A DNA stretch of 64,000 bases, taken from NCBI RefSeq assembly GCF_001445575.1, contig NZ_CP013200.1, positions 4,154,001 to 4,218,000 of the forward strand, read 5' to 3'. The position numbers and the translations under genes are program-made. How positions within the stretch are numbered: position 1 is the stretch's first letter; every line of letters begins with the position of its first letter. Below, piece by piece: positions 4,460-61,506 of this stretch. Source of the stretch: Arthrobacter alpinus (lineage in GTDB: Bacteria; Actinomycetota; Actinomycetes; Actinomycetales; Micrococcaceae). The notes beneath the pieces were generated by a model. That model was not told the origin of the DNA, made no database searches, and was given only the letters and a program-made list of their open reading frames with translations.

Positions 4460-4949
4460 GGAGTATTCTCTCGTTGTGCCTTGGAGTTCGACGCCGGTGC
4501 TAGGCTGCCAGCGGTACCTCCAGTTGCACTTCTCCAACAGGCAACTGGACGGTTCCCTTGGACCGGCCTGCCGCAACCTCAAAGAGCCCCGCAAATACTG
4601 AGAGGCTGATGCGCCCTTCTCCGTCTGCAATCATCTCGACCGGAACAAGCCACCATTCCCCGCGGATAAGGTTCTGAAGTGCCGTGTAGGCCGGCTTCGG
4701 CGATCCGTCCTTTCGGATCAGGCCGCTTGGCGCACCGAGCCATGCCGTGGCGTCGTCAAAACCCCAATAGGTAATCGATTGAACCGCTGGGTGCGCCACA
4801 AGCGTTGAGTAGTGGCGGATAATTTCCGCTGCCTGACGTTCCTCACCGGCGGGCGTTGTGGGCCAGTTATCGACCACATAGTCGTTGAGATCCCTCTGCG
4901 TCAGGCTGGTTGTGAGTCACTCATTAACCGTTGATTGAAGGAGCCGGCC

Positions 4950-42465: not shown

Positions 42466-42593
42466 TTCCGCGCTGTCAAGAGGACGACGAGACTTAGCTA
42501 AAGTGCTCGCGTAATGGGGTGTGTACCTCATTTGAGGAGTGCTCGCGAAATCTCTGGCGCATGGTTGGGTGCTTTGTTGTGCTGGAGGGATGC

Positions 42594-43169: not shown

Positions 43170-43279
43170 CACTTTCAAGTACGAATCAAAGGCTCTACCG
43201 AAGGTCATCCACGGCCTGCGGCAGAGTGACCCACTCCGCCGCAGCGAACGAATCTGGTCCGCAACCCGGAACATGGGAA

Positions 43280-43545
43280 ATTCGAACCGAAGTAGCCGAT
43301 ACTGAACCGTCGACACTACAACCGCAAGTAAATACCAACGAATACTATCGCCGCAGATCAGCGCATGCTGAGAACTGAAAACCCATCGTTACTTATCAAC
43401 GTTTATGAACCCCGCTTGCTGATCAGGGGTCAATAAAAATCTGCCAATAGGCTATTTTCACCTGTTCCTGCATCGATTTATTGCAACAATGCAAGGTACT
43501 AAATAGCCGTCAGTGCGCCTTCAAAAGTGTGAGTTTTGTATGACG
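43280..43545 (+). repeat. 266-bp repeat, copy 1 (left part; interrupted by IS110)
   Basis: Begins ATTCGAACCGAA and ends ATGACG. It aligns without any gap to 50584-50849 and 54437-54702; all three are exactly 266 bp. Conserved islands include GCCGCAG.TCAG, TATCAACG, GAACCCC, CTGCCAATAGGC, TACTAAATA and TGAGTTTTGTATGACG. The continuation seen in the other copies is found about 1.47 kb further on at 45015-45115, beyond an IS110 element. Confidence 0.85.
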
Positions 43546-43568
43546 GGGGGGTGCCCCTATGTATTTTG

Positions 43569-44765
43569 TCAAGCAGCTTTTAGCTCCGGAAGATCGTAAA
43601 GGGTTTTGTCTCGAAGCAGGGCGAAGAGGACTGTGAGTCGGCGGTGGGCTAGTGCGATCAAGGCTTGGTTGTGGCGTTTCCCTTGGGCGCGTTTCCGGTC
43701 GTAGTAGGCGCGGCTGGTGGGGTCGAATCTGATCGAGGCGAAGGCCGAGAGGAATAGTGCTCTTTTCAGGCGTTTGTTCCCTGAATGGCTGACGCGTTCG
43801 GATTTGATCGAGGTACCTGACTGGCGTGTTGTTGGCGCTAAGCCTGCGTATGAGGCCATGGCGGCGGCGTTAGCGAAGGTTTTGCCGGAGATCTCGGCAA
43901 TGATGATCGCTGCGGTCCTGACGGCGACCCCTGGCATGGATGTCAGGACCGGGTAAAGAGGGTGGGCCTCGACCATTTTCTCCAGGTGAGTGGCCACATC
44001 GCTGCGTTGGGCATGCAGGGAGATCAACTGATTGGCGAGGTGTGGGATCACTAGTGCGGCAGCGTCGGTGCCGACCACGATAACGCTCTGTTTCTCCAGT
44101 GCGGCAAGGATTGTCGTTGCCCACGCGGTGTGGCGTCGGGCTCCGTGCTTCTTGAGTTTCGCAGCGATCCGCGCTTTGCCGGCCTGCCTGAGTTGGGTCG
44201 GTGTGGGCCAGGTCGCGAGGACTTCAAGAACGGCGTCGTGATCCAACCAAGGGCCAATGACGCGTTCCAGGGGTGGGTGAATCTGGGTAAAGAGCCCGCG
44301 GATTCGATTGCTCGTTTGCGTGATCTGGCGTGCCAAGTCCAGATCGAAACCGGTGAGCATGGCTAACGTGGCTTCGTCCTCGTCAGCGACCTCGATGCTG
44401 CGCAGGGTGTGAGGCATGGTGCGGGCCGCGTCCGCGATGATGAACGCATCCTTCTCATCGGTTTTCGCCGATCCCGGGTACATGTCCGCGATTCGACGCA
44501 TCGATAACCCGGGCAGGTAGGCCACCGGGATACCCAGGTGTTGAGCGAGTGCGACGGCTAACGCGCCGATGGTCGCTGGCTGGTCCACGACAACGAGAAC
44601 CGTGCCCTTGGCGCTGAGGTCTTGATAGACGGCGGTGAGTTTGGCTTCGTCGTTAGGAAGCGTTCTGTTCCAGATTTTCGTGCCATCTTTGGTAACAGCG
44701 CAGGCCCAGTGGTCGGTTTTGCCGACATCGAGGCCTAGAAAGATCTGCACGTCATTAGTGATCAT
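43569..44765 (-). CDS. IS110-family DEDD transposase
   Basis: 398 residues. The N-terminal RuvC-like DEDD domain has IFLGLDVGKTDHWACAV (first Asp near residue 14), VLVVVDQPATIG (second acid) and YPGSAKTDEKDAFIIADAAR (third and fourth acids). The C-terminal Transposase_20 domain has LTSMPGVAVRTAAIIIAEISG (HhH-like), FANAAAMASYAGLAPTTRQSGTS and a Ser nucleophile region SHSGNKRLKRALFLSAFASI. All key residues seem intact, so it may be active. The stop is 24 bases from the element's end; the 5' leader of about 220 bases is long, as for bridge-RNA-bearing members. Confidence 0.92.
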   Translation of the reverse strand: MITNDVQIFLGLDVGKTDHWACAVTKDGTKIWNRTLPNDEAKLTAVYQDLSAKGTVLVVVDQPATIGALAVALAQHLGIPVAYLPGLSMRRIADMYPGSAKTDEKDAFIIADAARTMPHTLRSIEVADEDEATLAMLTGFDLDLARQITQTSNRIRGLFTQIHPPLERVIGPWLDHDAVLEVLATWPTPTQLRQAGKARIAAKLKKHGARRHTAWATTILAALEKQSVIVVGTDAAALVIPHLANQLISLHAQRSDVATHLEKMVEAHPLYPVLTSMPGVAVRTAAIIIAEISGKTFANAAAMASYAGLAPTTRQSGTSIKSERVSHSGNKRLKRALFLSAFASIRFDPTSRAYYDRKRAQGKRHNQALIALAHRRLTVLFALLRDKTLYDLPELKAA

Positions 44766-44990
44766 GGCTAGTGCTCCTTTGAACTAGTTCTTGTTCAAGG
44801 CCGACCAACCGCCGGTAGCAAAGTCTTACATCCACGTTATGACAGGCGTCCATATTTTGGCGCCGCGCCCCTAATCAGCAATCACCTCGCTGCCATCCCA
44901 ATCTCGGTGGCAACACCCCCCGGATCATTGGATAGACAGGGGCAAGACACCATGCCGAGATTGGTCGGCCGACAATCCCTATGATCCTCT
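44766..44990 (-). ncRNA. Candidate IS110 bridge RNA leader
   Basis: The non-coding leader upstream of the transposase contains a 10-base complementary pair (CCAATCTCGG 44898-44907 with CCGAGATTGG 44955-44964), forming a hairpin. It also has GCCCCTA (44867-44873), matching the element end at 43553-43559. TATGAC.GG at 44838 matches the insertion target TATGACGGG at 43539. IS110 elements encode a structured bridge RNA in this position whose loops match element end and target (established for IS621 and relatives). The short matches here fit but could be chance. Confidence 0.5.
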
Positions 44991-45014
44991 TTCTAGGGAC
45001 TATCAAAAAGATAA

Positions 45015-45115
45015 CGGGGAAGTCCCACGTGACGGCTGCGCGGCCTCGAATACATCCAGACAGCTATAAATGCTGCGGCTACCATTCTACTCTCGATTCG
45101 TCCCGAGTTGCCCGT
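45015..45115 (+). repeat. 266-bp repeat family, copy 1 continuation (right of IS110)
   Basis: CGGGGAAGTCCC, then GGCTGCGCGGCCTCGAAT and TTCTACTCTCGATTCGTCCCGAG, line up with the sequence that follows ATGACG in copy 2 (50850-50951) and copy 3 (54703-54803). This tail is less conserved than the 266-bp core and drifts by single-base gaps. Confidence 0.7.
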
Positions 45116-45275
45116 CTGGTCTCATATCCCATGCGTTACAACACCCCTCAAGATGGTCTGTGTTGCCTTTTCGTCGTGACAGGGTAGTGCTTCTGAGCTT
45201 GATAGTCCGGCTATGCTGCAGTTTTTGAAAGTGGATGGCTAGCCTGTCTTTCGAAGGAAAAGAATGCCTCCGCGG

Positions 45276-45767
45276 CTACTTTCGGTCGTCCTGAGGGGTG
45301 ATGGAGTGCGTTGAGGAAACCCGGGGCCGGTCTTTCCAAGCGCCGGTGGACCATAAGGTCACCGCGATGAGCGCTGGCTGGAAGAAGAGTCGCACCAGAC
45401 GCTTGGAGTCGGTGTCGAGCCCAAAGCCGTCGCGCGCATGCAGCCACTGGGCGATGTTCCCGGGGAAGACGGCGATAAAGAACAGTGCCACCACCCAACC
45501 CACAGGGACGCGCCGCCGCGCGAGCAACATCAGCGCGGCACCAAGGGTGATCTCGACAATGCCGGAGGCTACGACGACCAGGTCGGCATCAAGGGGCACG
45601 AACTTCGGGACCTGCGCTTGGAATTCCTCGCGGGCGACGGTCAGATGGCTGACGCCGGCGAACGCAAGCATTGCCCCCAGCACTAGACGAACGATCGTGC
45701 GTCCCGTGGATGTGCGTCCCGACGGTGCGACGAGTCGTGCCAGGAATGTCTTACCGTGATCAGTCAT
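45276..45767 (-). CDS. DoxX-family membrane protein
   Basis: 163 residues from ATG at 45767. Four hydrophobic helices, beginning IVRLVLGAMLAFAGVSHLTVAREEF, with the DoxX-typical EITLGAALMLLARRRVPVGWVVALFFIAVFPGNIAQWL and a closing PALIAVTLWSTGAWK. It overlaps the Ohr-like gene upstream by 8 bases, so the two are co-transcribed. DoxX proteins are linked to membrane redox and oxidative-stress functions, which suits the partner. Confidence 0.85.
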   Translation of the reverse strand: MTDHGKTFLARLVAPSGRTSTGRTIVRLVLGAMLAFAGVSHLTVAREEFQAQVPKFVPLDADLVVVASGIVEITLGAALMLLARRRVPVGWVVALFFIAVFPGNIAQWLHARDGFGLDTDSKRLVRLFFQPALIAVTLWSTGAWKDRPRVSSTHSITPQDDRK

Positions 45768-46182
45768 TGGACACCAGCACGATGACGTCGATGTTGCCTC
45801 GAGTGGCCTTGGAGTATGGACACACGAGATGAGCGGCGTCGGCGAGCTCTTGGGCCTGCTCATAGGGCAGGTCCGGGCTGGTGACCTCCAGTTCGACGGC
45901 CAGTTTGAAACCGCCCACGTCGTTATTCCCGATCTGCATCCGGCCGCCGACGGTCGAGTTCTCGATATTGATTTTCTTGCCGCGGGCCACCGCATGCAGG
46001 GCTGAATGGAAATAGGCCGCGAATCCTGCAGCAAAGAGCTGTTCGGGGTTGGTACCCTCGCCCAAACCACCCAATTCACGCGGAGGAGCTAGGGTGACGT
46101 TGAAGGTTTCCTCCGAGGTGGAAACCCTTCCTTCCCGCCCGTGACCGGCGGAAAGCGCTTCGGCAGTGTAGAGAGTGTTCAT
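45760..46182 (-). CDS. Ohr/OsmC-family protein lacking the peroxidatic cysteine
   Basis: 140 residues from ATG at 46182. Ohr features: ALSAGHGREGRVSTSEETFNVTLAPPRELGGLGEGTNPEQLFAAG near the start and HLVCPYSKATRGNIDV at the end, which holds the resolving Cys (about 126). In Ohr enzymes the peroxidatic Cys lies in AGYAACFHSAL; here the motif reads AGFAAYFHSAL, with Tyr (codon TAT) in its place near residue 61. The rest of the fold is intact and 140 residues is normal length. It probably cannot reduce organic hydroperoxides by the known route. Binding role, altered chemistry or loss of function are open. Coupled to DoxX. Confidence 0.85.
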   Translation of the reverse strand: MNTLYTAEALSAGHGREGRVSTSEETFNVTLAPPRELGGLGEGTNPEQLFAAGFAAYFHSALHAVARGKKINIENSTVGGRMQIGNNDVGGFKLAVELEVTSPDLPYEQAQELADAAHLVCPYSKATRGNIDVIVLVSND

Positions 46183-46372
46183 GATAGGTACCTTTCGGAA
46201 GCTTGCTTTTCTTGGCCGGCGGCGCCGCCGCCGGGTCTCATAATCTCCCGGGGAACTTGCGTGCTCAGTGAACCATCCCAAGAATCATGCCGGCGTTTTG
46301 TGGGGCGCGTCGTAGGATAACGAACTGACTTCACGAGCATAGTAGGTTTGCTCGCACTCTTCAGGGGCGTGG

Positions 46373-46432
46373 TGTCTCATAACCTAGGCGCCTCTAAAGC
46401 TATGGGATTCGAGACGCATAGGTTATGAGACA
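46373..46432. repeat. Perfect 14-bp inverted repeat TGTCTCATAACCTA / TAGGTTATGAGACA
   Basis: Arms at 46373-46386 and 46419-46432 are exact reverse complements, separated by 32 bases. There is no T-run, and AT-containing arms make a terminator unlikely. The arrangement resembles a site-specific recombinase site or the abutted ends of a lost mobile element. No recombinase gene is adjacent. Confidence 0.7.
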
Positions 46433-46736
46433 GTCGACGGCAGTTTCTGCTCAGTCTCGGGCCATAACTAATTAATGGGCCTAACTATCATTGAGCAGAA
46501 CCCGACAAGATGAATTCCTACAGTCGCGTTCACGACGATACGTGCCCGCAAGGGGAAGGTCCGACGGGCATGATTGCCATTGGGTTCAGCGAATTTGAGA
46601 AAGGCGAAATTAGACAATATGTGATTGTCAGTTTTTGATCCTCTCGTGTTCTTCGGCTTGGGTATCAGGGAAACTGCACTTGGTCGGCTATGACTGGCCG
46701 CGGCCAGTGCCGCCACAAGCGCGGGGTGAGCATCCA

Positions 46737-46772
46737 GTGAACATTTCTGGGCAAGGGTGGCTAGCGGATGTG
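46737..46772 (+). pseudogene. Short fragment resembling the M20 amidohydrolase N-terminus
   Basis: Twelve codons read VNISGQGWLADV. The neighbouring amidohydrolase on the opposite strand begins VNITGQGWLVEV. Nine of twelve residues agree. It lies opposite in orientation to the intact gene and is followed by unrelated sequence. Likely a relic of a duplicated or rearranged paralogue. Confidence 0.45.
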
Positions 46773-46853
46773 TCGGTGGTGAGCTTCAGCCCCCAGCGAG
46801 CTGGACGCTGGGGATCGCTCTCAAAAGCGACTCCGTAGCCCGTCGTAGTTATA

Positions 46854-48092
46854 TCAAGGCGCAGGCAACCAGGTGCGGGTTGCGGTGGTAAGAGCCGTCA
46901 CGCCGAGAGCCAAAGTCGGTTCGATGACTGGGGCATACATCGGCGAGTGGTTGGAAGGGATCGTGCGCAGGGCCGGGTCTGCTGCATCGCCGGTTGTGAA
47001 TAGCGCCGGATCCGCGCCGCCGAGCAGCCAGAAGGACAACGGTGCCCCAGCGGCACTCGCGAGCACACCGACGTCCTCACTGCCGGCGCCGGCGCCAGGA
47101 TCCAGGACAGCTTCGGGGCCAAGCCATGTTCTGAAGCTCGCCAATGTACGGCCCAGCGCGTCCTCGTCGTTTACGACGACCGGGAAACGCTCGATCTCGG
47201 TCAGAGTCGGCATCTGGGAAGCACCGGCAGCCAGAGCCTCTGCACGGGCGATGCGTGCAATGCTAGCCAGAATGTGCTCGCGAACAGTGGGTGTGTAACT
47301 GCGGACATTGAGCAACAACTCCGCCTGATTTGGGATAACATTCGCAGCTTCGCCAGCACGGATGGACCCAACCGTGAGGACTGCGACGTCTGTGCTGGGA
47401 ATCTCGCGAGAGATGATCGTCTGCAGGCGCAACACGGTCTGAGCGGCCATCACGACGGGATCAACCGCGTTTTGCGGCATCGAGCCGTGGGCTCCTTGGC
47501 CCACAAGGGTCAAGCGCAGGGAATCCGAGGCTGCGTAGGCAGCGCCGGCGTGAGCGGCTATCTTCCCCGCCGGCAGAGGGGCAACGTGCTGACCGAGCAC
47601 CACATGCGGCGTGGGTACCTGATCGAAGAGCCCGTCATCCACCATGGCCTGGGCCCCAGCTCCGAGTTCCTCGGCTGGCTGGAAGACAACCACCAAGGTC
47701 CCTTGCCACCGAACTCTGTCAGCTGCCAGGTCAGCCGCCGCGCCGAGGAGGCACGCCGTATGCAGGTCGTGGCCGCAAGCATGACTCACCGGAACGACGT
47801 TGCCGTGTGCGTCGGACGATTGAGCCACACTGGCGTAATCCAGCCCCGTGTCCTCACGAACAGGCAACCCGTCCATGTCCGCCCGCAACAGCGCGGTCGG
47901 ACCGGTTCCGTTCTTCAAGATACCAACGACTCCAGTCTGTCCCACCCCTGTGATGACGTCGTAGCCAAGATCGGTCAGTCGCTGCGCGACGATAGACGCT
48001 GTGCGATGCTCTTGGAACCCTAACTCCGGGTGTCGGTGCAAGTCTTTGTAGACCTCAACCAGCCACCCTTGACCCGTTATATTTACGACCAT
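46854..48092 (-). CDS. M20-family amidohydrolase (hippurate/N-acyl-amino-acid hydrolase type)
   Basis: 412 residues. M20D features: YKDLHRHPELGFQEHRTA at the start, LLRADMDGLPVREDTG, and VSHACGHDLHTACLLGAA near residue 103 with the metal-binding Cys-Gly-His. FQPAEELGAGAQAMVDDGLF supplies the EE pair, and GAHGSMPQNAVDPVVMAAQ lies in the dimerisation domain. No signal peptide. It likely removes acyl groups from N-acylated amino acids or cleaves related amides in the cytoplasm; substrate is not readable from sequence. Stands alone on the minus strand. Confidence 0.9.
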   Translation of the reverse strand: MVVNITGQGWLVEVYKDLHRHPELGFQEHRTASIVAQRLTDLGYDVITGVGQTGVVGILKNGTGPTALLRADMDGLPVREDTGLDYASVAQSSDAHGNVVPVSHACGHDLHTACLLGAAADLAADRVRWQGTLVVVFQPAEELGAGAQAMVDDGLFDQVPTPHVVLGQHVAPLPAGKIAAHAGAAYAASDSLRLTLVGQGAHGSMPQNAVDPVVMAAQTVLRLQTIISREIPSTDVAVLTVGSIRAGEAANVIPNQAELLLNVRSYTPTVREHILASIARIARAEALAAGASQMPTLTEIERFPVVVNDEDALGRTLASFRTWLGPEAVLDPGAGAGSEDVGVLASAAGAPLSFWLLGGADPALFTTGDAADPALRTIPSNHSPMYAPVIEPTLALGVTALTTATRTWLPAP

Positions 48093-48458
48093 GACGCCTC
48101 CCAGCAGGTAGAACCATCCAGTCAGAGCGATTATTCACCACATTCATCGGCACCACAATGGCTTCCCCGCCAAGACAAGGCGCATCCTGTCGAGTGCTCA
48201 ATCTCCTTGATAGGGCGTTGATCCCGGAGACGAGCCTCGGTGCTCGGCACGCCCTCAAAGTACACGGCAAGGCATCTATTCCCTTGCACCCCACCTGCTC
48301 ACTGGGTAGTAGAAAGGCCGGCTCCATACCGGCAATCCGCACATCCATGCCGACACTAGTTGCAATAACGAGATCATCAACGGCGGAAAATAGACGTCAC
48401 CATCAACTGAACCGTTCCGGGTTTGATGCCGCTGTCCTTTTTGAGAAGGATGGTGAGT
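48093..48458. other. Gap without a supported gene
   Basis: 366 bases before a transposase fragment. Frames are short and unrelated to known families. It presumably carries the amidohydrolase promoter at its left end. Confidence 0.45.
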
Positions 48459-48698
48459 ATGCCTAAGAATTTTCCTTCTGAAGCCCGAGCCCGTGCAGTG
48501 CGCATAGTGTTGGATCGATTGCCGGAATACCCCTCAGTGAATGCTGCTTGCAAAGTGGTGGCTCCGAAGCTCGGCGTTGGCACTGAGTCGTTACGCCGCT
48601 GGGTCATCCAGGCCCAAGTTGATGCTGGCGTGAAAGAGTGCCCGAGCAGTAACGAGCTTCGGCGCGAAAGGCGGACGCCCGCCCAGCTTCGACAATGA
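48459..48698 (+). pseudogene. IS3-type OrfA fragment
   Basis: ATG at 48459 begins MPKNFPSEARARAVRIVLDRLPEYPSVNAACKVVAPKLGVGTESLRRWVIQAQVDAG. This is the typical HTH_Tnp_1 domain of IS3 OrfA proteins. After VKECPSSNELRRERR the sequence no longer fits the family: the zipper and orfB are missing. About 60 of 100 expected residues remain. It abuts, in another frame, a fragment of an unrelated IS5-type transposase. Confidence 0.75.
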
Positions 48699-48857
48699 AG
48701 CTTACAAACGCCGCAACGTCATCGAGCGCTGTTTCGAGGCTTTCAAGCAGTGGCGAGCCACGCAACACGCTGCGAGAAGCTCGCTGTCACCTACCGCGGA
48801 GGGGTCGTCCTTCGGGCCATCACAATCTGGCTCAAGGTGTTAGGAGACATGCCCTAG
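48661..48857 (+). pseudogene. IS5-family transposase C-terminal fragment
   Basis: Reads GAKGGRPPSFDNEAYKRRNVIERCFEAFKQWRAT, the end of a DDE_Tnp_1-type IS5 transposase with the final acidic residue in NVIERC. After a one-base shift it continues ATRCEKLAVTYRGGVVLRAITIWLKVLGDMP to TAG at 48857. It lacks the N-terminal two thirds and is fused to the OrfA fragment, showing nested or sequential transposition followed by decay. Confidence 0.75.
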
Positions 48858-49168
48858 CGACTATTCACCTAGATCCTTCGCGGTCAGACTGTGAAGATCA
48901 ACCAGTTGGTGTCCAAGTCAGGGAAGTCGGCGCAGGTGCTGGTCTTGCAAGGAGGGATGGATAACAGGCCGAATAAGCATCTTCAACTAAAGGAACCCTC
49001 TCAACACAGGACCATTCTCCTGCCACGCTAACCACCAATCACCACGCAAAATCGACATTAGGGTCTGTAGCCACGTCGCTCAGTCTGATGCACAGCGGAA
49101 TGAATCGACGCCAGATCGCGCTGCCCCTAATGAAGTACATACAAACACATCAAATAAGGAGCAGTCTC
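48858..49168. other. Upstream region of the alcohol dehydrogenase gene
   Basis: 311 bases of mixed sequence between the transposase relics and the dehydrogenase start. No gene seen. The dehydrogenase promoter should lie in its right half; its ribosome site AAGGAG is at 49157-49162. Confidence 0.45.
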
Positions 49169-50122
49169 ATGAAGGCATGGCAGTTCACCGGAACCAACAA
49201 GCCCTTGGAATTCAACGATGTTGCGGAGCCCCACGCGGGCCCCGGCCAAGTTGTGGTCGAAGTCCGCGCGGCAGGCGTATGCCACTCTGATGTCACGGCA
49301 ATCGACGACGCAGGCTGGATGCCACTTTTCCCGCACCTGCCTCGCACCATGGGGCACGAAAATGCCGGTGTCATCACCGAAGTTGGCCCGGGCATGGAAG
49401 AGTGGAAAGTAGGCGACCGCGTTGGTCTGGCACCCGTCATGAGCGACGGTGACGCCATCGGCTACGGAAAGTGGGACGGCGGCTTTGGCCCCCAGCTCCT
49501 GGCCACCAACGACAACCTCGTGAAGCTGCCAGACGAGGTCTCGTTTGAACTCGGCGCGATGGCAACCGACGCAGGCCTAACTGCATACCACGCCATCATG
49601 GCAGTCGGCGGGGCCAAAGCGGGCATGAAGGTCGGGGTGATTGGCCTCGGAGGTCTCGGCTACATCGGCGCACGCGTCGCAGCTCTTTCCGGTGCTGAAG
49701 TTTACGGTGCTGAAGTGAACCCCCAGACGCGCGAGCTGGCGGACGAAATCGGTCTTGCTGGCGTGGCTGATTCCATCGATGCCTTCAAGGACAAGAACCT
49801 TGACCTGATTGTTGACTACGCCGGATTTGGAACAACGACTTCAGCCGCCATCGAGACACTGGCCGAATTTGGCACGCTCGTGCAAGTGGGTATGGGCCGG
49901 CTCGAGGCCAACATCAATACCTATCCAGTAATCGTCAACCAGCTCACCATTAAGGGCTCAAAATCCGGAACCAAGGAAGACCTGGAAGCGCTGTACATCC
50001 TGATGAAATCAGGGCAACTCAACCCGCCCATGAATATCATCACCCAAGCCGAGATCCCTGACGCCATCGACAAGCTGCGAGCCGGGGGCGTTGTTGGTCG
50101 CTTCGTTGCCGTCTACAAGTAG
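49169..50122 (+). CDS. Zinc-type medium-chain alcohol dehydrogenase, without structural-zinc loop
   Basis: 317 residues from ATG at 49169, with AAGGAG nine bases upstream. GroES-like N-terminus with catalytic-zinc ligands in AGVCHSDVTAIDD (Cys near 37) and TMGHENAGVITEVGP (His-Glu near 61). After KVGDRVGLAPV the usual four-cysteine structural-zinc loop is replaced by a short cysteine-free stretch (MSDGDAIGYGKWDGGFG). The Rossmann domain has VGVIGLGGLGYIGARVA. It likely oxidises an alcohol or reduces an aldehyde with NAD(P); substrate unknown. A strong terminator follows 17 bases after the stop. Confidence 0.9.
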   Translation: MKAWQFTGTNKPLEFNDVAEPHAGPGQVVVEVRAAGVCHSDVTAIDDAGWMPLFPHLPRTMGHENAGVITEVGPGMEEWKVGDRVGLAPVMSDGDAIGYGKWDGGFGPQLLATNDNLVKLPDEVSFELGAMATDAGLTAYHAIMAVGGAKAGMKVGVIGLGGLGYIGARVAALSGAEVYGAEVNPQTRELADEIGLAGVADSIDAFKDKNLDLIVDYAGFGTTTSAAIETLAEFGTLVQVGMGRLEANINTYPVIVNQLTIKGSKSGTKEDLEALYILMKSGQLNPPMNIITQAEIPDAIDKLRAGGVVGRFVAVYK

Positions 50123-50139
50123 GCCTCACTAGGCATAAT

Positions 50140-50174
50140 CGAGAGGAGGTGGGGGTTTCCCGCCCCTCCTCTCG
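50140..50174 (+). terminator. Stem-loop terminator after the alcohol dehydrogenase
   Basis: CGAGAGGAGG pairs perfectly with CCTCCTCTCG around a 15-base loop that can pair further (GGGG with CCCC). Located 17 bases after the stop codon. There is no T-run, which is common for high-GC actinobacterial terminators. Confidence 0.75.
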
Positions 50175-50583
50175 CACCGACCAATGTGCGGGCCTCGCAT
50201 ACGGCGGTTCGCTAGGTCACTGAAAACGATCCCTTGCCTCGCGAAAGAGCATGGGCCTGCCCCGGCTTCAGTTGACTCCATCAGCCGAGAATTGGATATC
50301 CTGGCAAGGTCATGAACGACGCCTGACCTATACCCAGCAGTTCCTTTCATTTGGAGGAAATGGTCACCATCCCAAGACCAATTATTCAAAGCCGCCTCGA
50401 GAACGGATTTAGGGCCACCGCTGGTAGAGTCAGCCCGATCGCTTAGCCCCCGCGATCATTTCACGCGGACCCTAACCAGATTCACCGCCCGACTGAATGA
50501 TCTAGGCCAAGTTGGATCCATTGAGCGAAAGCGGAGCAACGCCTCCTGCGAGAGCAGCATTCTGCGGGTAGGGAACCCTGGAC
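50175..50583. other. Gap before repeat copy 2
   Basis: About 410 bases with no supported open frame. It lies between the dehydrogenase terminator and the second copy of the 266-bp repeat. Confidence 0.45.
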
Positions 50584-50951
50584 ATTCGAACCGAAACAGC
50601 CGGTGCCGAACGGTCGACATTGCAACAGCAAGTGAATACCAGCGAATACTATCGCCGCAGGTCAGAGCATGCTGAGCAGTGAAATTCCATCGTCACTTAT
50701 CAACGTTCATGAACCCCACTGTCCTGCCATGGGTCCATTTCAAGCTGCCAATAGGCCCTTTTGACCAGTTTCTGCATAGCCTGCTTACAGCAATGCAAGA
50801 TACTAAATAACTACTGTTCCACCTTCAAAAGTATGAGTTTTGTATGACGTGGCGGGAACTCTCGGCAGACGGCTGGACGACCTCGAATGCAAGCAATCAG
50901 CCAACATTGCTTCACTTCTCATTCTTCTCTCGATACAACCCGAGCTACGCG
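50584..50951 (+). repeat. 266-bp repeat family, copy 2 (core 50584-50849 plus tail)
   Basis: The core starts ATTCGAACCGAAACAGCC and ends TGAGTTTTGTATGACG, exactly 266 bp like copies 1 and 3. The tail (TGGCGGGAACTC, then GACCTCGAATGCAAGC and TTCTCTCGATACAACCCGAG) matches the tails of the other copies less closely. No conserved open frame runs through the core on either strand. Confidence 0.85.
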
Positions 50952-51197
50952 TTTGCTTCACAGCCGGGGCTGCCTATTTTTGGATCCGAGAGGGGCCTGG
51001 TGCACACCATCAGCGAGCTGGTGCTGGAGAAAAACAGGCTTCTCTCGAACACTGTGCTGACGGAAATTTCCGCCGTCGTGGCCACCACCCCGGCGACCGG
51101 CGGTTGCCTGCAGCCCAGTCCAGCTGGCGACAGCTATTTCAGATTGGGTGGCGTTCCACGAACTGGTTGCGACCCAGGCCGGCATACAGGAGGCCAG

Positions 51198-52283
51198 TCA
51201 GGCAGGAATGACCCGTTCCGCGCGAAGTGTGTCGAATAGGGCTGCGAACGAGGCGAGCGTGTCGGCATGGCCGGTGAACCCGGCATTGCGGCTGCGGCTC
51301 ATGTCGGTGAAGCATTCAACGGGACGGTTAAGGTCGCTGTCTGTGTGCCACCAGGATGCCACTCGGGAGAGGTCAGGTTCGGCCAGACCCTCGCGTTCCA
51401 CCAGCTGACGCCATGCATCGGCCTTGCCGGCCATCTGCTCTTCCAAGGGACGAGGCCGTTCGCTGAAGCCCTCGGCTTCCACGCCGAGAAGCTCCGCAAT
51501 CCGTGGCCACATCCAGCGCCAGCGGAATACATCGCCGTTCGCTGTGTTGTAAGCCTGGCTCGGCAAGCCTGGGGTGGTTGCGGCCCAGACCATCTGACGG
51601 GCAAGCAGCCCACTGTCTGTCACGTCCGTGACGCCATTCCACTGCACCTCGTTGCCGGGGAAGATAAAAGGCGTGCCCTCCGCGCGGGACAGCGCTGCCT
51701 GGGCAGCCAACGTCTGGCCAAGATTCATGGCGTTGCCGATGGCATGTCCGATCATGGTGTGCGAACGGTGGACGCTCCAACCGAAATCGTAGAGATCAGC
51801 GGCTCGCCACAGCTCATCTTCCTGGGCATAGTAGAAATTCGGCGCATCCAGGCGGGGCTCATCCTCGTGGAAAGGGGTGTCACGTGTCGCGCCCGTGCCG
51901 TACGCCTCGAATGGTCCAAGATAGTGCTTGAGTCCGGTCACCAGAGCCACGTGTTCCAGTGTCCCGGACGGACCGACGGCATCAAGGACATTGCGGACCA
52001 TGCCGGCATTGACCGAGATGTTTTCGGCCTCGGTGGGCATCCGGCTCCAAGCCGTGAAGTAGACGTGCGTAGGATTCAGCCCGGCCAGCGCAGCCTGCAC
52101 AGACTGCGGGTCGGTCAAGTCCGCCCGCACCGACTCGATACCATCCTGAGGAGAGACCTCACGCCGGGACAGACTGATGGTCCGCCACCCCTGAGCGACG
52201 AGTTCGCGGGTGAGCGCACTGCCGGAAATTCCTGTCCCGCCAACGACCAGAGCTGCTCCCTGAGGGCCAATTGGTGCATTCAT
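51198..52283 (-). CDS. PRISE-type SDR reductase (progesterone 5-beta-reductase-like)
   Basis: 361 residues. The N-terminal ALVVGGTGISGSALTRELVAQGWRTISLSRR is the atypical dinucleotide motif (GGTGISG) of the PRISE group. ESVRADLTDPQSVQAAL, HVYFTAWSRMPTE and VALVTGLKHYLGPFEAYG (motif with Lys) follow. FYYAQEDELW carries the catalytic Tyr, and WSVHRSHTMIGHAIGNAMNLG is the later PRISE block. These enzymes reduce enones with NADPH. It is divergent from a MerR gene, with matching palindromes in the shared promoter, so it is probably MerR-controlled. Confidence 0.88.
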   Translation of the reverse strand: MNAPIGPQGAALVVGGTGISGSALTRELVAQGWRTISLSRREVSPQDGIESVRADLTDPQSVQAALAGLNPTHVYFTAWSRMPTEAENISVNAGMVRNVLDAVGPSGTLEHVALVTGLKHYLGPFEAYGTGATRDTPFHEDEPRLDAPNFYYAQEDELWRAADLYDFGWSVHRSHTMIGHAIGNAMNLGQTLAAQAALSRAEGTPFIFPGNEVQWNGVTDVTDSGLLARQMVWAATTPGLPSQAYNTANGDVFRWRWMWPRIAELLGVEAEGFSERPRPLEEQMAGKADAWRQLVEREGLAEPDLSRVASWWHTDSDLNRPVECFTDMSRSRNAGFTGHADTLASFAALFDTLRAERVIPA

Positions 52284-52382
52284 CGAAGGTCTCCTTGTTT
52301 ATTCACCCGCATATTTGGTGTGCGGGTTGTTGCCCGGGCCCAGCGGATGTCCGGCCGGGTCTTCAAAGGATAAACGTTGACG

Positions 52383-52398
52383 TTGACGTTAATGTCAA
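52383..52398. promoter_or_regulatory. Palindrome TTGAC-N6-GTCAA on the reductase side
   Basis: TTGACGTTAATGTCAA lies 100 bases upstream of the reductase start. The same TTGAC-N6-GTCAA layout recurs at 52472-52487 next to the merR gene. A doubled identical-pattern palindrome in a divergent merR promoter is a strong candidate for the regulator's operator. Confidence 0.65.
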
Positions 52399-52471
52399 AT
52401 GCGAGACTTCCTGCCTGACGGCCATGAACGCCCCCACACCTTGGCCGCAAGCGGCCGGCATTCGGTAAACT

Positions 52472-52487
52472 TTGACAAGAACGTCAA
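52472..52487. promoter_or_regulatory. Palindrome TTGAC-N6-GTCAA on the merR side
   Basis: TTGACAAGAACGTCAA lies 32 bases upstream of the merR ATG at 52519, close to where the merR promoter should be. Matches the site at 52383-52398 in arms and spacing; 89 bases separate the two starts. Confidence 0.65.
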
Positions 52488-52518
52488 TGTTGGCCTCTAA
52501 CGGGTGGTGGATCTGCGC

Positions 52519-52887
52519 ATGAAAATTGGTGAATTGGCGTTCCGCACCGGTGTGACGCCCCGGGCCTTGCGGTACTACGAGGAGCAGGAGTTGTTGCACC
52601 CAGAGAGGGAGGGCAACGGGTACCGCACCTATCCTGAGTCTGCAGTCGTACAGGTGGAGCAGGTGCGCGATCTTCTTGCGGCAGGCCTGTCCACACGGGT
52701 CATCCGTGTGGTGGTGCCTTGCTTTGACGGTTCTGGGCCGGAGTTGCGGCCTCAGGTGGACAAGGAGCTTGCGGACAATGTTGCCCGCGAGGTGGAGCAG
52801 ATGGGTGCCCGCATCGATGCCCTGACCCGGAACCGGGATGCCGTCCGCCGCTTCCTTCAGACCGCGACCCCGACCGCGCCCGACTAA
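52519..52887 (+). CDS. MerR-family transcriptional regulator
   Basis: 122 residues from ATG at 52519, the start that aligns with the family (MKIGELAFRTGVTPRALRYYEEQELLHPEREGNGYRTYPE, winged helix). An upstream GTG at 52504 is less likely. RDLLAAGLSTRVIRVVVPCF, then the long coiled-coil helix PQVDKELADNVAREVEQMGARIDALTRNRDAVRRFL, complete a short effectorless MerR. There is one Cys (VPCF), not a metal-binding set, so a metal sensor is unlikely. Divergent from the reductase, which it probably activates in response to an electrophile or drug-like compound (inference). Confidence 0.9.
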   Translation: MKIGELAFRTGVTPRALRYYEEQELLHPEREGNGYRTYPESAVVQVEQVRDLLAAGLSTRVIRVVVPCFDGSGPELRPQVDKELADNVAREVEQMGARIDALTRNRDAVRRFLQTATPTAPD

Positions 52888-53097
52888 GTATTGGCTTCAC
52901 CGTGGTGACTGGCGCAGGAGCCCCCCACGATCCCGCGCCTCGATGCGTCTGGCATCCACATGCAGCTCTAGACGAGCACGGTGTTGAGAAGGCTCTGTAT
53001 ACGGGTCAGCCTGTGGGAATGACCGCGAGAACCTACCTCGTGAGCCTGGCCTCCAACCCGGAGATAACGACGTCCGCGGAAACGTCGAGAGCCGGTG

Positions 53098-53137
53098 CAG
53101 AAGCACCCGTGACGCCAGGTCAACGAGTGCTTCTGCG
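53098..53137. terminator. Possible bidirectional terminator between merR and the lipoprotein gene
   Basis: GCAGAAGCAC (53098-53107) and GTGCTTCTGC (53128-53137) are exact reverse complements with a 20-base loop. The smaller GGTGC-AGAA-GCACC also folds. It lies just before the end of the convergent lipoprotein gene. No T-run, so only moderate support. Confidence 0.4.
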
Positions 53138-53153
53138 CAGAGTCTTGAAGGGG

Positions 53154-54155
53154 CTATTTAGCCGAGAAGTTGAACCTACCGCCGGTGCTAGCGACGTCGC
53201 AGTACCCCGGCTCACTCTCCCACGCCACCGTGCACGTGCCGACCCCCTTGCGGCCTACGACACCGGCGTGAATAGGCTCCTCAAGCATTACCGTTAGAAA
53301 GGTCTTGACCTCCTGGCAGGAGAGCCCAGAGTCGCCGAGCTCGTAAGAGAACCGAGCCCCGATGCACTGGCCACCAAGTACACCCGCTTCCTCCGCCGGC
53401 GCTATGTCCTTGAGCTGCTCGAACGAGAGCATGGCGTTCTTAAGTTGAGAGTACTCGTCGGTTTTGGCATACGTCTCGAACCGCTCAATACCCTTCAACG
53501 AATCGGCTACCCCGGGAAGCTTAGTCTCGCTCGTCAGTACGGTGCTGAACTCGCCTGAACCGCCTGTGTAAATAAGACCCGGAAGCCGGCCTCCCCAGTT
53601 CTTGATATTGGCTGGTTGCAAGGCGGTGAGCATCATTTCAGCATTGTCCGACTGTCCTTCGTAGGAGAGGAATGCAAAGTTGATGCCTCCGAACTTGCCT
53701 TCCCCTTGTACATCAAGAACCGAGTTCTCGGCCATGTTATTCATAGGATTAGTGTCGAAGACTGCGGCGCCGCCGGTGCGGATCTCTGCAAGCTGGCGGC
53801 CATCGGCTGCCATGATCCTGAAGCTCGCGGTGCTGCCCTGGTGGACCTGCGCGGCAATATCGGTGAGCTCCTCCAGTCTCCAGGCTGACGGCATCGTGAT
53901 CTGGAAATGCCCGTTGGCAATCTGGCGGGTTTTCAGCGTCGCCTCGGTGGGGCTGGCCGCGGCACCCGCTGTCGCTGCTGCAGTCGACGGGCCGCTCGAC
54001 GCTCCGGTCACTGGTGACGGCGTTGCCGATGTCGGTGCTGCAGTTTCAGCTGGCGCTGAGTTACCCGCTTGGCTACATCCAGTGAGCACCAGTGCTGCCG
54101 TCATCACAGCACCCGCCCACATGGTCATTTTCCGGCGCGTGCTGAGAATGGTCAC
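53154..54155 (-). CDS. Secreted lipoprotein of unknown function
   Basis: 333 residues. Signal peptide MTMWAGAVMTAALVLTGC with lipobox LTGC (Cys about residue 27), then a low-complexity Ala/Ser/Thr/Pro linker (about 30-70). The globular part has FQITMPSAWRLEELTDIAAQVHQGSTASFRIMAADGRQLAEIRTGG and EVKTFLTVMLEE. Three or four cysteines in the second half (QCIGARF, LSCQEV, GTCTVAWESEPGYCD) could form disulfides outside the cell. No family recognised. It is flanked by a repeat copy on its 5' side. Confidence 0.75.
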   Translation of the reverse strand: MTILSTRRKMTMWAGAVMTAALVLTGCSQAGNSAPAETAAPTSATPSPVTGASSGPSTAAATAGAAASPTEATLKTRQIANGHFQITMPSAWRLEELTDIAAQVHQGSTASFRIMAADGRQLAEIRTGGAAVFDTNPMNNMAENSVLDVQGEGKFGGINFAFLSYEGQSDNAEMMLTALQPANIKNWGGRLPGLIYTGGSGEFSTVLTSETKLPGVADSLKGIERFETYAKTDEYSQLKNAMLSFEQLKDIAPAEEAGVLGGQCIGARFSYELGDSGLSCQEVKTFLTVMLEEPIHAGVVGRKGVGTCTVAWESEPGYCDVASTGGRFNFSAK

Positions 54156-54436
54156 TTATGTCCCCCAAGACTTGGTGCGGCGTGAAACCTCTGATGAGAC
54201 CGCGAATTTCTCCGAGTCTATCTGACGTACACATCTATCTGACGTACACACGTCTACGGTGACGTCCATTGTGTTTTGCTTCGCCAATGCGCGGTCAACG
54301 GAGGTGTGTCAACGGTCTGGGACCGCTGGGACCGCCCCAGCGTTGCTTGAGAGTCAAAGAAACATGGGGAGTCCCATTCAACCAGTGAACCGGACCGACC
54401 GGGAAGTCACCTGCGCGACATGATGCCCATTCTGGA

Positions 54437-54803
54437 ATTCGAACCGAAACAGCCCGCGTTGGAGGGCCGGAATTTCAACCGTATGTAAATACTAACGAAA
54501 ACTATCACCGCAGGTCAGAGCCTGTTGAGCACTCAAAACCCCTCATTAGTTATCAATAGCTACGAACCCCGCTGTCCTGCCAAGGGTCCACTTAGAGCTG
54601 CTCATAGTGGGTTTTGGCCTGATTTTACATAGTGCAGTTGCAACAACGAATGATACTAAATACTCTCCACTTTGCACTGATAAGGATGAGTTTTGTATGA
54701 CGTGGTGGGAACTCCCGCCCGGATGGTGCGCGGCCTCGAGCAAGCCAGTCAGGCACCAATGTGGCGCTTCCAATTTTACTCTTGATTCATCAGTGTCAGA
54801 CCG
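54437..54803 (+). repeat. 266-bp repeat family, copy 3 (core 54437-54702 plus tail)
   Basis: The core starts ATTCGAACCGAAACAGCC and ends GATGAGTTTTGTATGACG, again exactly 266 bp. It is the most diverged copy but keeps GCCTG.TGAGCACT, TATCAA, GAACCCCGCTGTCCTGCCAAGGGTCC and GATACTAAATA. The tail (GTGGTGGGAACTCCC, then CGGCCTCGAGCAAGCC) matches the other copies. Confidence 0.85.
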
Positions 54804-55305
54804 TCAGCAGCTCGGTTCCGGGACCCTACCTTATTTGTCCCGACGCGCATATTAGCTAATTGGCGCACCTGAAGTAAGCAAGCAAAGCCCGGGCGGTCTC
54901 CTGAACACTGCCCATTAGTTCGCCGTCCCCGCCCAGATTGCGGCACCCATCCGGGCGCAGGCTCCCGTCGCAGGACACTGCAAATCATCGACCGGACCAC
55001 GGAGTTCGCGGCCACGGCCTGGGTAAAAGGAACATGGCTCATGTTTAGGAAATTCACGTTTTTCAGTCTCAGGGACGCACTGGAACAGCGCATCGCCCAG
55101 CAGCTCATCGTGGCCATCCTGACCGGTTCGTCCGTGATGGGCTCCATCCCGCTCGTCACCGGCAACGATGAGCCCCTCCTGACCTCGCAACTCCAACTTT
55201 GCCTTGTATTGTCTTCGCTTTGCTCTTGGCGGCTTCGCGCTGGGCTGTGTGCCACGATGTTGGTCTTCAAGCGAGACTTCGACGGCTAGGCCTGAAGATT
55301 CAACG
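54804..55305. other. Gap between repeat copy 3 and purU
   Basis: About 500 bases. A plus-strand frame (near 54975-55200, reading TTEFAATAWVKGTWLMFRKFTFFSLRDALEQRIAQQLIVAIL) looks mildly protein-like, but no family or start was found. It may be a remnant of a lost gene. Confidence 0.4.
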
Positions 55306-56217
55306 CTAGCGCAACACGATTGTCCGGTTGCCTTGGACGATCACCCGGCCCTCGCAGTGCCAGCGGACGGCGTTGCTCAGTGCCTTGCATTCGGTGTCCC
55401 GGCCTGCGGCCACGAGGTCTTCGGGTCCGAAGGAGTGGTCCACCTCGACCACCTGCTGGGAGATGATGGGGCCCTCGTCCAGTTCGCTGTTGACGTAGTG
55501 GGCCGTGGCGCCCACCGTCTTGACTCCCCGGGCATAGGCCTGGTGGTACGGCTTGGCGCCCTTGAAACTGGGCAGGAACGAGTGGTGGATGTTGATGGCC
55601 CGCCCGTCCAGGCGGCGCGTGAGACCGTCGCTGAGGACCTGCATGTAGCGAGCCAGCACCACCAGTTCGACGTCGAACTCGGCCATGAGCCCAAGCAGCC
55701 TCGCCTCCGCCTCCGGTTTGGTGTCGGCGGTGACGGGCACATGGAAGAACGGGATGCCGTGCCATTCGGCCAGCCGACGGTGGTCCTGGTGGTTGGAGAC
55801 CACGGCGACCACCTCGACCGGCAGTTCCCCCGTGCGGGTCCTAAACAGCAGGTCGTTGAGGCAGTGCTCAAACTTGGACACCATGATCAGCACCCGCCGC
55901 TTGGCCCCGTGCGGGCGCAGCGCCCAGCGCATGCCGTGCCGGTGCGCCACCGGCTCCAGGACCGCCCGCAGCCCGGCCAGGGCCAGTTCCCCGGCCGGCG
56001 CGGAAAAGTGCAGCCGCATGAAGAAGTGGCCGTCCGGTTCGGGCGCCCCGGCCACGGGCCGCAGGTGCTGGCGGTCGCTGAACTGGAGGAGGTCGATGAT
56101 GTCGGAGCCTTGTTCCAACAGGGCCCCTGAAACCTGGTGGACGATCCCGGGGCTGTCCGGGCAGTCTAGTGTTAGCACGTATTGGGCCGTTTCGGCCTGC
56201 TCAAGAAGAGTGCCCAT
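55306..56217 (-). CDS. purU: Formyltetrahydrofolate deformylase
   Basis: 303 residues from ATG at 56217, one base after the sdaA stop; a TTG at 56229 is the alternative. The N-terminal ACT domain (YVLTLDCPDSPGIVHQVSGALLEQGSDIIDLLQF, about 10-85) is followed by the formyl-transferase fold. Catalytic motifs are INIHHSFLPSFKGAKPYHQAYARGVKTVGATAHYV and SELDEGPIISQ (Asn-His-Asp triad). It hydrolyses 10-formyl-THF to formate and THF. At the end of the sarcosine operon it returns THF for further rounds of demethylation. Confidence 0.95.
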   Translation of the reverse strand: MGTLLEQAETAQYVLTLDCPDSPGIVHQVSGALLEQGSDIIDLLQFSDRQHLRPVAGAPEPDGHFFMRLHFSAPAGELALAGLRAVLEPVAHRHGMRWALRPHGAKRRVLIMVSKFEHCLNDLLFRTRTGELPVEVVAVVSNHQDHRRLAEWHGIPFFHVPVTADTKPEAEARLLGLMAEFDVELVVLARYMQVLSDGLTRRLDGRAINIHHSFLPSFKGAKPYHQAYARGVKTVGATAHYVNSELDEGPIISQQVVEVDHSFGPEDLVAAGRDTECKALSNAVRWHCEGRVIVQGNRTIVLR

Positions 56218-56218
56218 C

Positions 56219-57592
56219 TCAGCACTCAACCACGTTCACGGCGAGGCCCCCGCGGGAGGTTTCCTTGTACTTGCTCATCATGTCGGCACCTGTTTCCCTC
56301 ATGGTCTTGATGGCCTTGTCCAATGACACCTTCTGGCTGCCGTCCCCGTGCAGGGCCAGCCGTGCGGCGTTGATCGCCTTGACGCTGGCGATGGCGTTGC
56401 GTTCAATGCACGGGATCTGCACCAGCCCGCCCACGGGGTCGCACGTCAGCCCCAGGTTGTGCTCAATGCCTATTTCGGCGGCGTTTTCGGCCTGCACGGG
56501 TGTGCCGCCCAGCAGCTCGCACAGGGCACCGGCCGCCATGGAACACGCCGAGCCGACTTCGCCCTGGCACCCCACCTCGGCGCCCGAGATCGAGGCGTTG
56601 AGCTTGAAGAGCATGCCGATGGCCGCGGCCGTCAGCAAGAAGCGCACGACGCCGTCGTCGTTGGCGCCGGGCACGAACTTCAGGTAGTAGTGCAGCACGG
56701 CCGGAATGATGCCGGCCGCCCCGTTGGTGGGGGCGGTGACAATGCGTCCGCCGGCGGCGTTTTCCTCGTTGACGGCCAGGGCAAAGAGATTGACCCACTC
56801 CATGGCCCGCAGGGGGTCCGCAGTGTCCTCGGGCGCCTGCAGCGTGCGGAAGAGTCCCGGCGCCCGGCGCGTCACCTTCAGTCCGCCCGGCAGGATGCCC
56901 TCGGCGGCGCAGCCGTTGGCCACGCACTCCTGCATGACGGACCAGATGTTGAGCAGCTTGGCCCTCAATTCCTCCTCCGTGTGCCACACTAGCTCGTTAG
57001 CCTGCATGACCTCGGAGATACTCAGTCCCTCACGGGCGCAGATGGCCAGCAGTTCGTCGGCCGTTCTGAAGGGGTGGGGCAGCACGGTTTGGTCCATGAC
57101 TACCCGGTCCGCACCGACGGCCTGCTCATCGACCACAAAGCCGCCGCCCACCGAATAGTAGCTGCGTTCACGCACCACCGCCCCGGCGTGGTCCAGCGCC
57201 CGGAACGTCATGCCGTTGGGGTGGGCAGGCAGCGACTTGCGCCGGTGCAGCACCACGTCCTGCCCGAAGTTGAAGTCGATCCGGTGCAGGCCCGCGAGCA
57301 TCAGCTCGGCATCCAGCGCCGCCGCGGCGACCTGGTCGTCGGCCGTGGCGGTGTCCACCGTTTCGGGGTCCTGCCCCGACAACCCCAGGACCACTGCCTT
57401 GTCCGAGCCGTGACCGCGGCCCGTGGCGCCCAGCGAACCGAACAGCTCGGCCTCGACCCGGACGACGCCGGTGAGCTCGCCGTCGCGCTCCAGGCCGTCG
57501 GCAAAGCGCTTGGCCGCGCGCATCGGGCCCACCGTGTGGGAGGAGGAAGGCCCGATGCCGATGGAGAACAGGTCCAGGACGCTCAGTGCCAT
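56219..57592 (-). CDS. sdaA: L-serine ammonia-lyase (iron-sulfur, single chain)
   Basis: 457 residues, standard for the single-chain enzyme. [24 protein letters not shown] opens the beta domain. The alpha domain has [17 protein letters not shown]. The Fe-S-ligating cysteines are in [17 protein letters not shown] (two) and GLTCDPVGG. It converts L-serine to pyruvate and ammonia. Its start overlaps soxG by 10 bases. In this operon it channels serine made by GlyA into central metabolism. Confidence 0.95.
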
Positions 57593-58224
57593 GACGCGTC
57601 CGTCTCGGCGGCGAATTCCCGCATGCCGTCCAGGAGCCAGCGGCCCAGGTAGTCGGCAAACGATGCCCGAGGGAAGAGCAGGAACTCATCGTCCCCGACC
57701 TTCCACAAGATGGTGGGGATCTTGCCGATTTCGGTGGTTATGGCGGTTCCGGTGGCGAAGGAGCGCGGGTGCAGGTCCGCCGCGCAACTCTTCTCGAGCA
57801 CTGCGCGGGCGCTGGGCCCGGCCAGTTCGAAGGTGGTGCGGTTGCTGGAGAGCTCGATGGCCTGCCCGGCGCCGTCGCCCAGTGCCGCGGCAAGGCTGGC
57901 GGCCAGTCCGCCACGGTCCGCGCCGCCGTCATCAGGGGCGATGGCGAGGAACTCGTCCGGGCCCAGCCATAGGGCGGCCACCCCGCCAGGACCGGCGGTG
58001 ACCTGCCCGCAATTTGCGGGCAGTCCGCCCGTCAGGGCCCCGATCCGTTGCCCGGCCAAGGAGACGGGATCGACACGGATGCCGACCATCCTCTGGAACG
58101 GGACCTCCCGCAGGGCAACCCCGCGCTCCCCGGCCACGGCGGCCACGGCAAAGTCCGCCCAGAGGTGCCGGGCCGGGCTCCGTCGCAGTGCCTGTACATC
58201 TACGTTTGCTGCTGTGTTATCCAT
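57583..58224 (-). CDS. soxG: Sarcosine oxidase gamma subunit
   Basis: 213 residues from ATG at 58224. Family stretches: [57 protein letters not shown] region ([14 protein letters not shown]), [13 protein letters not shown] and [28 protein letters not shown]. SoxG is the small structural subunit of the heterotetramer. It overlaps soxA by 8 bases and sdaA by 10, so it is tightly co-expressed. Confidence 0.93.
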
Positions 58225-61162: not shown

Positions 61163-61488
61163 GACTTTGCTCCTTCCGGTGCTGGGATGCTCGGGTTGTG
61201 CTGGGTGCGGTCGGCTATTGCCGGTGGCTGTTCGCCCATCCGGTAGACGGCCTTGATCTCGTAGCTGACGGTGTCGCGGACCATGTTGAACCACTTGCGG
61301 CAGCCGGCACTGTGCACCCATCGCTCGGCAAACAGGCCCTTGGTGTTCTCGCGGTAGAACAGGTATTCCGCCCATTCGCGGTCGGAAAGCTGCTCCGGCT
61401 GTTCGGGGTACGCCACATGGGCCTGTCCCCCGTAGTGGAATTCGGTCTCGTTCCGTGGCCCGCAGTTGGGGCAGGAAAACAGCAACAT
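61159..61488 (-). CDS. soxD: Sarcosine oxidase delta subunit
   Basis: 109 residues, slightly longer than the usual 98-100. The zinc-binding start [21 protein letters not shown] (Cys-x-x-Cys and His) is followed by [44 protein letters not shown], which supplies the fourth ligand Cys. The extra C-terminal residues are Pro/Ala-rich. Coupled to soxA by a 4-base overlap and 18 bases from soxB. Confidence 0.96.
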
Positions 61489-61506
61489 TGCGTGCTCCTT
61501 CTACTG

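Follow-up and report, generated by a model that had tools for sequence, protein, structure and literature searches.

The 64,000-nucleotide stretch of Arthrobacter alpinus DNA analysed here (the window; G000:C1:4154001-4218000, where G000 is the window's genome) carries three copies of a repeat that belongs to an array of repeat-bounded units behind a tRNA-Thr(UGU) gene. The 266-bp copies reported in a first-pass annotation of the window are present exactly where they were placed, at 43280-43545, 50584-50849, and 54437-54702, and can be aligned over their full length. The other two copies are 80% (E = 1.0e-62) and 74% (E = 1.3e-38) identical to copy 2, E values that exclude chance similarity. 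A more diverged copy 4 is located at G000:C1:4230576-4230833, 22 kb past copy 3 and beyond the window edge.

Profile models of the repeat, with 226 and 174 positions, were searched against 24 stretches from 17 genomes, each turned so that the tRNA (or the repeat, if there was no tRNA) reads forward. In this orientation, every repeat is a junction that begins with a P arm (an outer tail, two arm-type sites spaced by 11 bp, and an inner part) and continues through the core AGCGGGG into a right half. By the criteria used here, the right halves of 71 junctions fall into 38 of type I, 25 of type T, and eight that are neither. The T half mimics a tRNA 3' end, with a T arm whose stem is compensated, an acceptor-like stretch, and a terminator-like sequence; stems GTCGG/CCGAC, ATCGG/CCGAT, ATCAG/CTGAT, and ATGGG/CCCAT are all found directly after the P arm at T junctions. 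The I half is conserved, ~170 bp long, and ends with TTTCGGTTCGAAT, the ATTCGAACCGAA that had been taken as the start of the repeat. Together with P, it has a mean identity of ~63% over 38 copies, with blocks in I conserved at 80-95% or more. The best conserved block within I halves (e.g., window 43249-43415) is CATGCTCTGACCTGCGG; CTCTGACCTGC was also found behind two other tRNA-like 3' ends in G021. All three copies in the window, and copy 4, are P-I junctions, and the window junctions have just the 11-nt TCGGTTCGAAT end, displaced by ~125 bp.

All junctions in the window lie on the minus strand. In copy 1, the I half, which is the left end of the next cassette read leftwards, occupies 43249..43415 (profile match r 100586-100752 of the G000 region; letters checked), with the T-loop-like end ATTCGAACCGAA at 43280-43291 (letters checked). 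The crossover core, AGCGGGG on the minus strand, is at 43410..43416, where between-genome identity switches. The P arm runs from 43417 to 43545 (43417..43545; arm-type sites 43527-43535 and 43538-43545), as far as an IS110-family insertion sequence (IS) at 43546..45016, whose approximate borders were set from Pfam matches (PF01548 and PF02371), the split P-arm match, and border sequences; its transposase (PF01548, PF02371) is encoded at 43569-44765, also on the minus strand. The insertion moved the outer P-arm tail of copy 1 to ~45017-45099 (45017..45099; profile positions 1-83 at r 98902-98984, 40 bits). Copy 1 alone has no adjoining shared tail, because this ~1.47-kb element separates its arm-type sites from the outer tail. 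Copy 2 consists of an I half at 50551..50717 (T-loop-like end 50584-50595; profile and letters), a core AGTGGGG at 50714..50720, with one change relative to AGCGGGG (letters checked), and a P arm of the alpha type at 50721..50935 (arm-type sites 50831-50839 and 50842-50849). Copy 3 has an I half at 54408..54572 (T-loop-like end 54437-54448; profile and letters), the core AGCGGGG at 54567..54573 (letters checked), and an alpha' P arm at 54574..54788 (arm-type sites 54684-54692 and 54695-54702, and a further inverted motif at 54662-54669).

The lack of insertions and deletions, which had been attributed to constraint on length or structure, has its explanation in the ends that att (attachment) sites share, and is not strict in the wider family. 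Gaps are present in all genus P-I rows (38/38), and the distance from the core to ATTCGAACC varies from 124 to 127 bp in the 29 P-I copies showing both marks; an exactly constant length therefore does not characterise the family. The tail described as weaker is real, with conservation continuing ~85-90 bp past ATGACG, but the repeat is wider than 266 bp on its other side too, by ~35-40 bp beyond ATTCGAACC.

The cores divide the window into cassettes (given here without strand), whose order runs from right to left, i.e., in the orientation of the tRNA: 22.1 kb, 3.85 kb, and 7.3 kb, followed by DNA past core 1. The 22.1-kb cassette, from core 4 (outside the window) to core 3, enters from the right, with 54567..64000 being its window part; its genes there resemble those for formyltetrahydrofolate deformylase, serine deaminase, and sarcosine oxidase (named by eye from the sequences). 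The 3.85-kb cassette between cores 3 and 2 (50714..54573) codes for a Rossmann-fold oxidoreductase, a MerR regulator, and a protein without a Pfam match; about 1.9-1.95 kb of this cassette recurs in G010, at another array position, with 94% identity. The 7.3-kb cassette between cores 2 and 1 (43410..50720, including the IS) codes for an OsmC-like protein, an M20 peptidase, and an alcohol dehydrogenase. The first 9.8 kb past core 1 is 95% identical in G001, where it lies behind a different P arm. An open reading frame (ORF) at window 42519-43169, without a Pfam match, adjoins the I half of copy 1, and related ORFs are found beside I in G001 and G006. At window 4893-6411, there is a ~1.5-kb stretch, probably an insertion sequence, with four counterparts in each of G010 (92%) and G005 (73-74%).

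Genomic setting of the repeats

On the minus strand of the window's genome, the tRNA-Thr(UGU) gene occupies 4294580-4294654, at a distance of 86-97 kb from the three copies in the window. Seven genomes have a chromosome-size contig (G000, G001, G002, G006, G010, G019, and G021); in these, an intact tRNA-Thr(UGU) gene lies ~24 to 250 kb from the copies, with its 3' end toward them, and all 32 of 32 blast hits fall in a single region on one side of this locus, in one orientation; the region is 0.55-0.87 Mb from dnaA. The same arrangement was observed for copies that share a contig with the tRNA locus (12 genomes). Eight tRNA-less pieces (G006b, G007_8, G007_10, G008b, G011_3, G014b, G016_26, and G017) were oriented by the repeats themselves for the profile search, and their orientation is therefore not independent evidence, except for G006 and G014, with their shared contigs. 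The ends of contig G006:C1 overlap by 35.8 kb at 99.3% identity, which points to either a circular untrimmed assembly or a duplication. A tRNA-Leu(GAG) gene at the edge of the G021 region proved to be a false lead.

Of 23 genomes from the genus, 17 gave blast hits with copy 2, and the profile search added G008. In a family-level sample, the repeat was present in seven of 158 genomes, all from its own genus (one of 32 genera). No match to copy 2 with its tail was found in plasmid and phage collections. Genes between the copies are mostly not common to different genomes. A constant neighbour gene, which the first-pass annotation proposed to look for, was not found beside the copies, whose neighbours differ: within 3.5 kb after each I half, the largest ORF clusters contained only four or three of 38 loci, in a scan with many spurious ORFs.

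Partner exchange at the core

Alignment of three junction pairs around the core revealed that the sequence partner changes there, to within a few bases. In G006b and G017, ~240 bp before the core are ~99% common, after which one sequence continues with I and the other with T; G010 and G021 are unlike before the core and alike after it.

Six pairs of units, chosen for testing, were measured segment by segment. Three pairs have a whole unit in common from core to core and nothing outside it, two have a common left boundary and start of the body, and one has I only. In the best pair, G002/G018, the segment before the core is 65% identical, followed by I with 97%, the body with 96%, the unit's own P arm with 85%, and the segment after the next core with 65%. 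The corresponding values for G002/G006 are 63%, 94%, 92%, 94%, and 60%, and for a T-type unit in G006/G017, 65%, 97% (left end), 96%, 86%, and 55%. Chromosomal DNA beside the tRNA, used as a local benchmark, is 70-77% identical in G002/G018, 69-74% in G002/G006, and 76% in G006/G017, while 195 bp containing the tRNA itself are 89% identical in G002/G018.

Of the 53 ends of array-internal blast matches (at least 700 bp and at least 85% identity), 10 fall no more than 250 bp from a core in each of the two genomes, compared with a mean of 0.04 and a maximum of three over 1000 random shifts. Units thus differ between genomes exactly between cores, in the selected pairs and at 10 of 53 match ends overall. 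Comparison of the assembled genomes demonstrates the architecture of the array, the core as the point at which partners are switched, and the sharing of whole units between species, and indicates that the DNA from one junction to the next is able to pass from species to species as a unit.

Integrases and arm-type sites

An integrase ORF starts no more than 900 bp after 13 of 16 tRNA loci, after four of 25 P-T junctions, and after none of 38 P-I junctions. The 13 loci include G002, where only a 108-residue piece lies near the tRNA and the full-length integrase gene is located further on. In the window's genome, the integrase gene by the tRNA matches Pfam PF00589. Tandem arm-type direct repeats, 11 bp apart, were detected by a motif scan downstream of the tRNA, in T halves, at 12 of 16 loci, and the P arms have the same arm motifs with the same 11-bp spacing as the integrase loci.

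The clade to which each of 15 integrases belongs goes together with the arm motif next to its gene. The six gamma integrases (84-94% identity) have ACTCTCCA without exception; three alpha integrases have ACTCATAC, with one relative having ACCCATGT; and three beta integrases have ACTCATTA. Two integrases stand alone, one from G005 with ACTCATTA and ACTCATGA, the other from G006 with ACACGCCA. A gamma integrase is found in five of six integrase-bearing units ending in a gamma P arm, the exception being the window's genome (beta). I-type units span 0.5-58 kb; the P arms that close the 32 units measured are of the alpha, alpha', or beta type, with no gamma or delta arm among them. The P arms resemble those of integrase-bearing elements, and I has no counterpart among T-type left ends.

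Two locations near the tRNA-Thr array, G005:C1:1117059-1119408 and G006:C1:35512-37950, have three consecutive tyrosine recombinase matches, resembling recombinase-in-trio elements. The tRNA-proximal element of the window's genome contains a bacteriophage exclusion (BREX) locus at L043:4556-10661 (G000:C1:4262556-4268661), with PglZ, BrxC, and a split pglX whose parts code for 843 aa (profile 1-870) and 326 aa. Between them lie a tyrosine recombinase gene and an opposite-strand 363-aa ORF that matches PglX positions 505-870, an arrangement that looks like that of an invertible, phase-variable pglX. A TrwC-type relaxase gene in the same tRNA-proximal stretch (L042:15614-18505) suggests that this stretch includes, or once included, an integrative mobilizable or conjugative element.

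Model of the array, alternatives, and related systems

We are confident that the repeats are att junctions, the product of site-specific recombination within a series of integrative elements arrayed in tandem behind tRNA-Thr(UGU); an earlier guess, the end of an unknown mobile element, was therefore right in substance. Each unit starts right after AGCGGGG with a left end, T or I, and finishes with a P arm bearing two arm-type integrase sites, so that P arm, core, and left end of two abutting units make up one junction. A circular P-core-T element would recombine with the core inside the tRNA gene, the incoming T half rebuilding the tRNA, and the P arm of the element would then precede the old 3' end. 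Repeated integration would stack the units, and since every junction still has a core, units could also enter between others. Many T-type units have a tyrosine integrase gene just past their left end, a position at which I-type units never have one.

Tyrosine integrases presumably perform the recombination. I-type units, which have no integrase gene of their own and have arm-type sites in their P arms, would be mobilised in trans by the integrases that other elements encode. No I half follows any of the 16 tRNA loci, and an I half would be unable to rebuild the tRNA; we therefore infer that the tRNA is not where I-type units enter, and that they use existing P-core junctions instead.

Several observations weigh against this reading of the array. 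A tandem arm-site pair was found by the motif scan in only one of 38 I halves, compared to 12 of 16 tRNA loci, a deficit that poses a real difficulty for mobilisation in trans. The integrase by the tRNA in the window's genome is of the beta type, while the P arms at the four junctions of this genome are of the gamma, alpha', alpha, and alpha types, and the cassettes of the window may thus now be stranded. As many as 43 of 53 match ends lie away from any core, and other rearrangement must therefore be common. G002 and G019 have only the I half in common (88%), with the body 67% identical, and in eight of 71 junctions, the right half is neither T nor I. Circular forms and excision of the units are predictions from assembled sequence. 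Finally, the far end of the array could not be located: the sequence that follows the tRNA in G009 provided no marker of the array end in other genomes, and window 2000-14000 matches G001 near its array and G021 on the other side of the tRNA, with no match in G002, G018, and G019.

A rather doubtful alternative accepts the same att array but regards I junctions as inert scars, i.e., ancient, decayed left ends of once autonomous elements that are now shuffled solely by homologous recombination in the flanks. In its favour, I halves have neither an integrase gene after them (0/38) nor tandem arm sites, and most match ends are off-core. However, I is conserved in 38 copies (~63% on average with P, blocks at 80-95% or more), and in G002/G018, I and the body are 96-97% identical, compared to 65-71% in the P arm directly before the core, which leaves little substrate for homologous recombination there.

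That the repeat is a regulatory leader or structured RNA placed before a degenerate small gene, as had also been suggested, is very improbable. The sequence is conserved and non-coding, and an ATG is present in its conserved end, but RNAalifold found almost no structure in 38 aligned P-I copies (z scores of -1.48 and +0.33 for the two strands, each against 60 column shuffles), and no Rfam family was matched in window 36000-60000 at E up to 1. The ATGACG is not a start codon; it lies within an arm-type integrase site, GTATGACG, at whose position other junction types carry different arm motifs, and neighbouring genes vary from copy to copy. Insertion sequence ends or a MITE (miniature inverted-repeat transposable element)-like transposon would also be non-coding and multi-copy, and copy 1 does adjoin an IS110-family element, but that element interrupts copy 1, with the displaced tail on its far side, and in complete-contig genomes, the copies lie on one side of one tRNA locus in one orientation, unlike those of a transposon, so that hardly any likelihood is left to this explanation.

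The att array belongs to a known kind, tandem accretion of islands at an RNA gene with integrase-less members. Dehalococcoides ssrA islands, in the available description, are arranged in tandem within ~100 kb downstream of one RNA gene, and each has a repeat of that gene's 3' end as its boundary; integration genes lie beside the left end in 16 of 31 islands and are absent from 15, which the authors suggest may be cis-mobilizable, and the cargo drives strain differences (PMC3146451). The array studied here is likewise a series of tandem islands behind one RNA gene, some without integration genes. It differs in having tyrosine integrases and tRNA-Thr(UGU) in place of the serine recombinase DsiB, the transfer-messenger RNA (tmRNA) gene ssrA, and a 20-bp repeat (PMC3146451). 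Relative to the islands as described there, only the present array has junctions conserved over ~400 bp with arm-type sites, several integrase clades on one core, and a second left end, I, without a tRNA 3' end.

Streptococcus cis-mobilizable elements (CIMEs) are described as decayed elements that retain attL and attR (PMC5704250). As in CIMEs and in tandem accretion of integrative and conjugative or integrative and mobilizable elements (ICE/IME), integrase-less units here keep att sites beside integrase-bearing elements with the same core: no integrase follows any of the 38 I-type left ends, and cores are present on both sides. Unlike CIMEs, as far as that source describes them, I-type units have a conserved left end of their own, are found in large numbers, and are shared as whole units by different species (PMC5704250). 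In the additive flexible genomic island at tRNA-Lys of Ca. Methylopumilus, repeats are the last 20 bp of the tRNA, and tycheposons are cited in the same paper as cargo behind a tRNA gene with a tyrosine recombinase (PMC10872708). Here, too, cargo accumulates behind a tRNA gene and is marked by 3'-end repeats, while the second left-end class has no equivalent in the available account of additive islands (PMC10872708). In the accessible parts of this literature, we found no description of a second conserved left end confined to integrase-less units. Among the top titles listed in literature searches, none describes this array in Arthrobacter, which does not by itself prove absence.

The unusual feature, then, is a class of integrase-less cassettes whose left end does not rebuild the tRNA. 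Because the I left end replaces the tRNA 3' end, such units would be safely housed only at P-core junctions and never at the tRNA. It is possible, and we propose it tentatively, that I-type units are specialised non-autonomous cassettes moved in trans by the integrase clade that fits their P arm, and that the locus is an integron-like platform on which several integrase specificities acting on one core exchange cargo across the genus. In integrons, an integrase stands at the head of a one-orientation array of integrase-less cassettes, each with a recombination site. The present locus differs from them in its phage-type integrase beside a tRNA, its multi-gene units, and the absence of an attC-like fold: no consensus fold was obtained, and the integrase matches Phage_integrase and has N-terminal domains of the phage type, although no search aimed at IntI was made.

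Thus, an anonymous repeat is explained as the boundary marker of mobile units, which provides a rule for dividing a hypervariable region of up to ~250 kb into units. Should mobilisation of I-type units in trans prove true, the locus would represent a platform for gene sharing that resembles integrons but has an independent origin.

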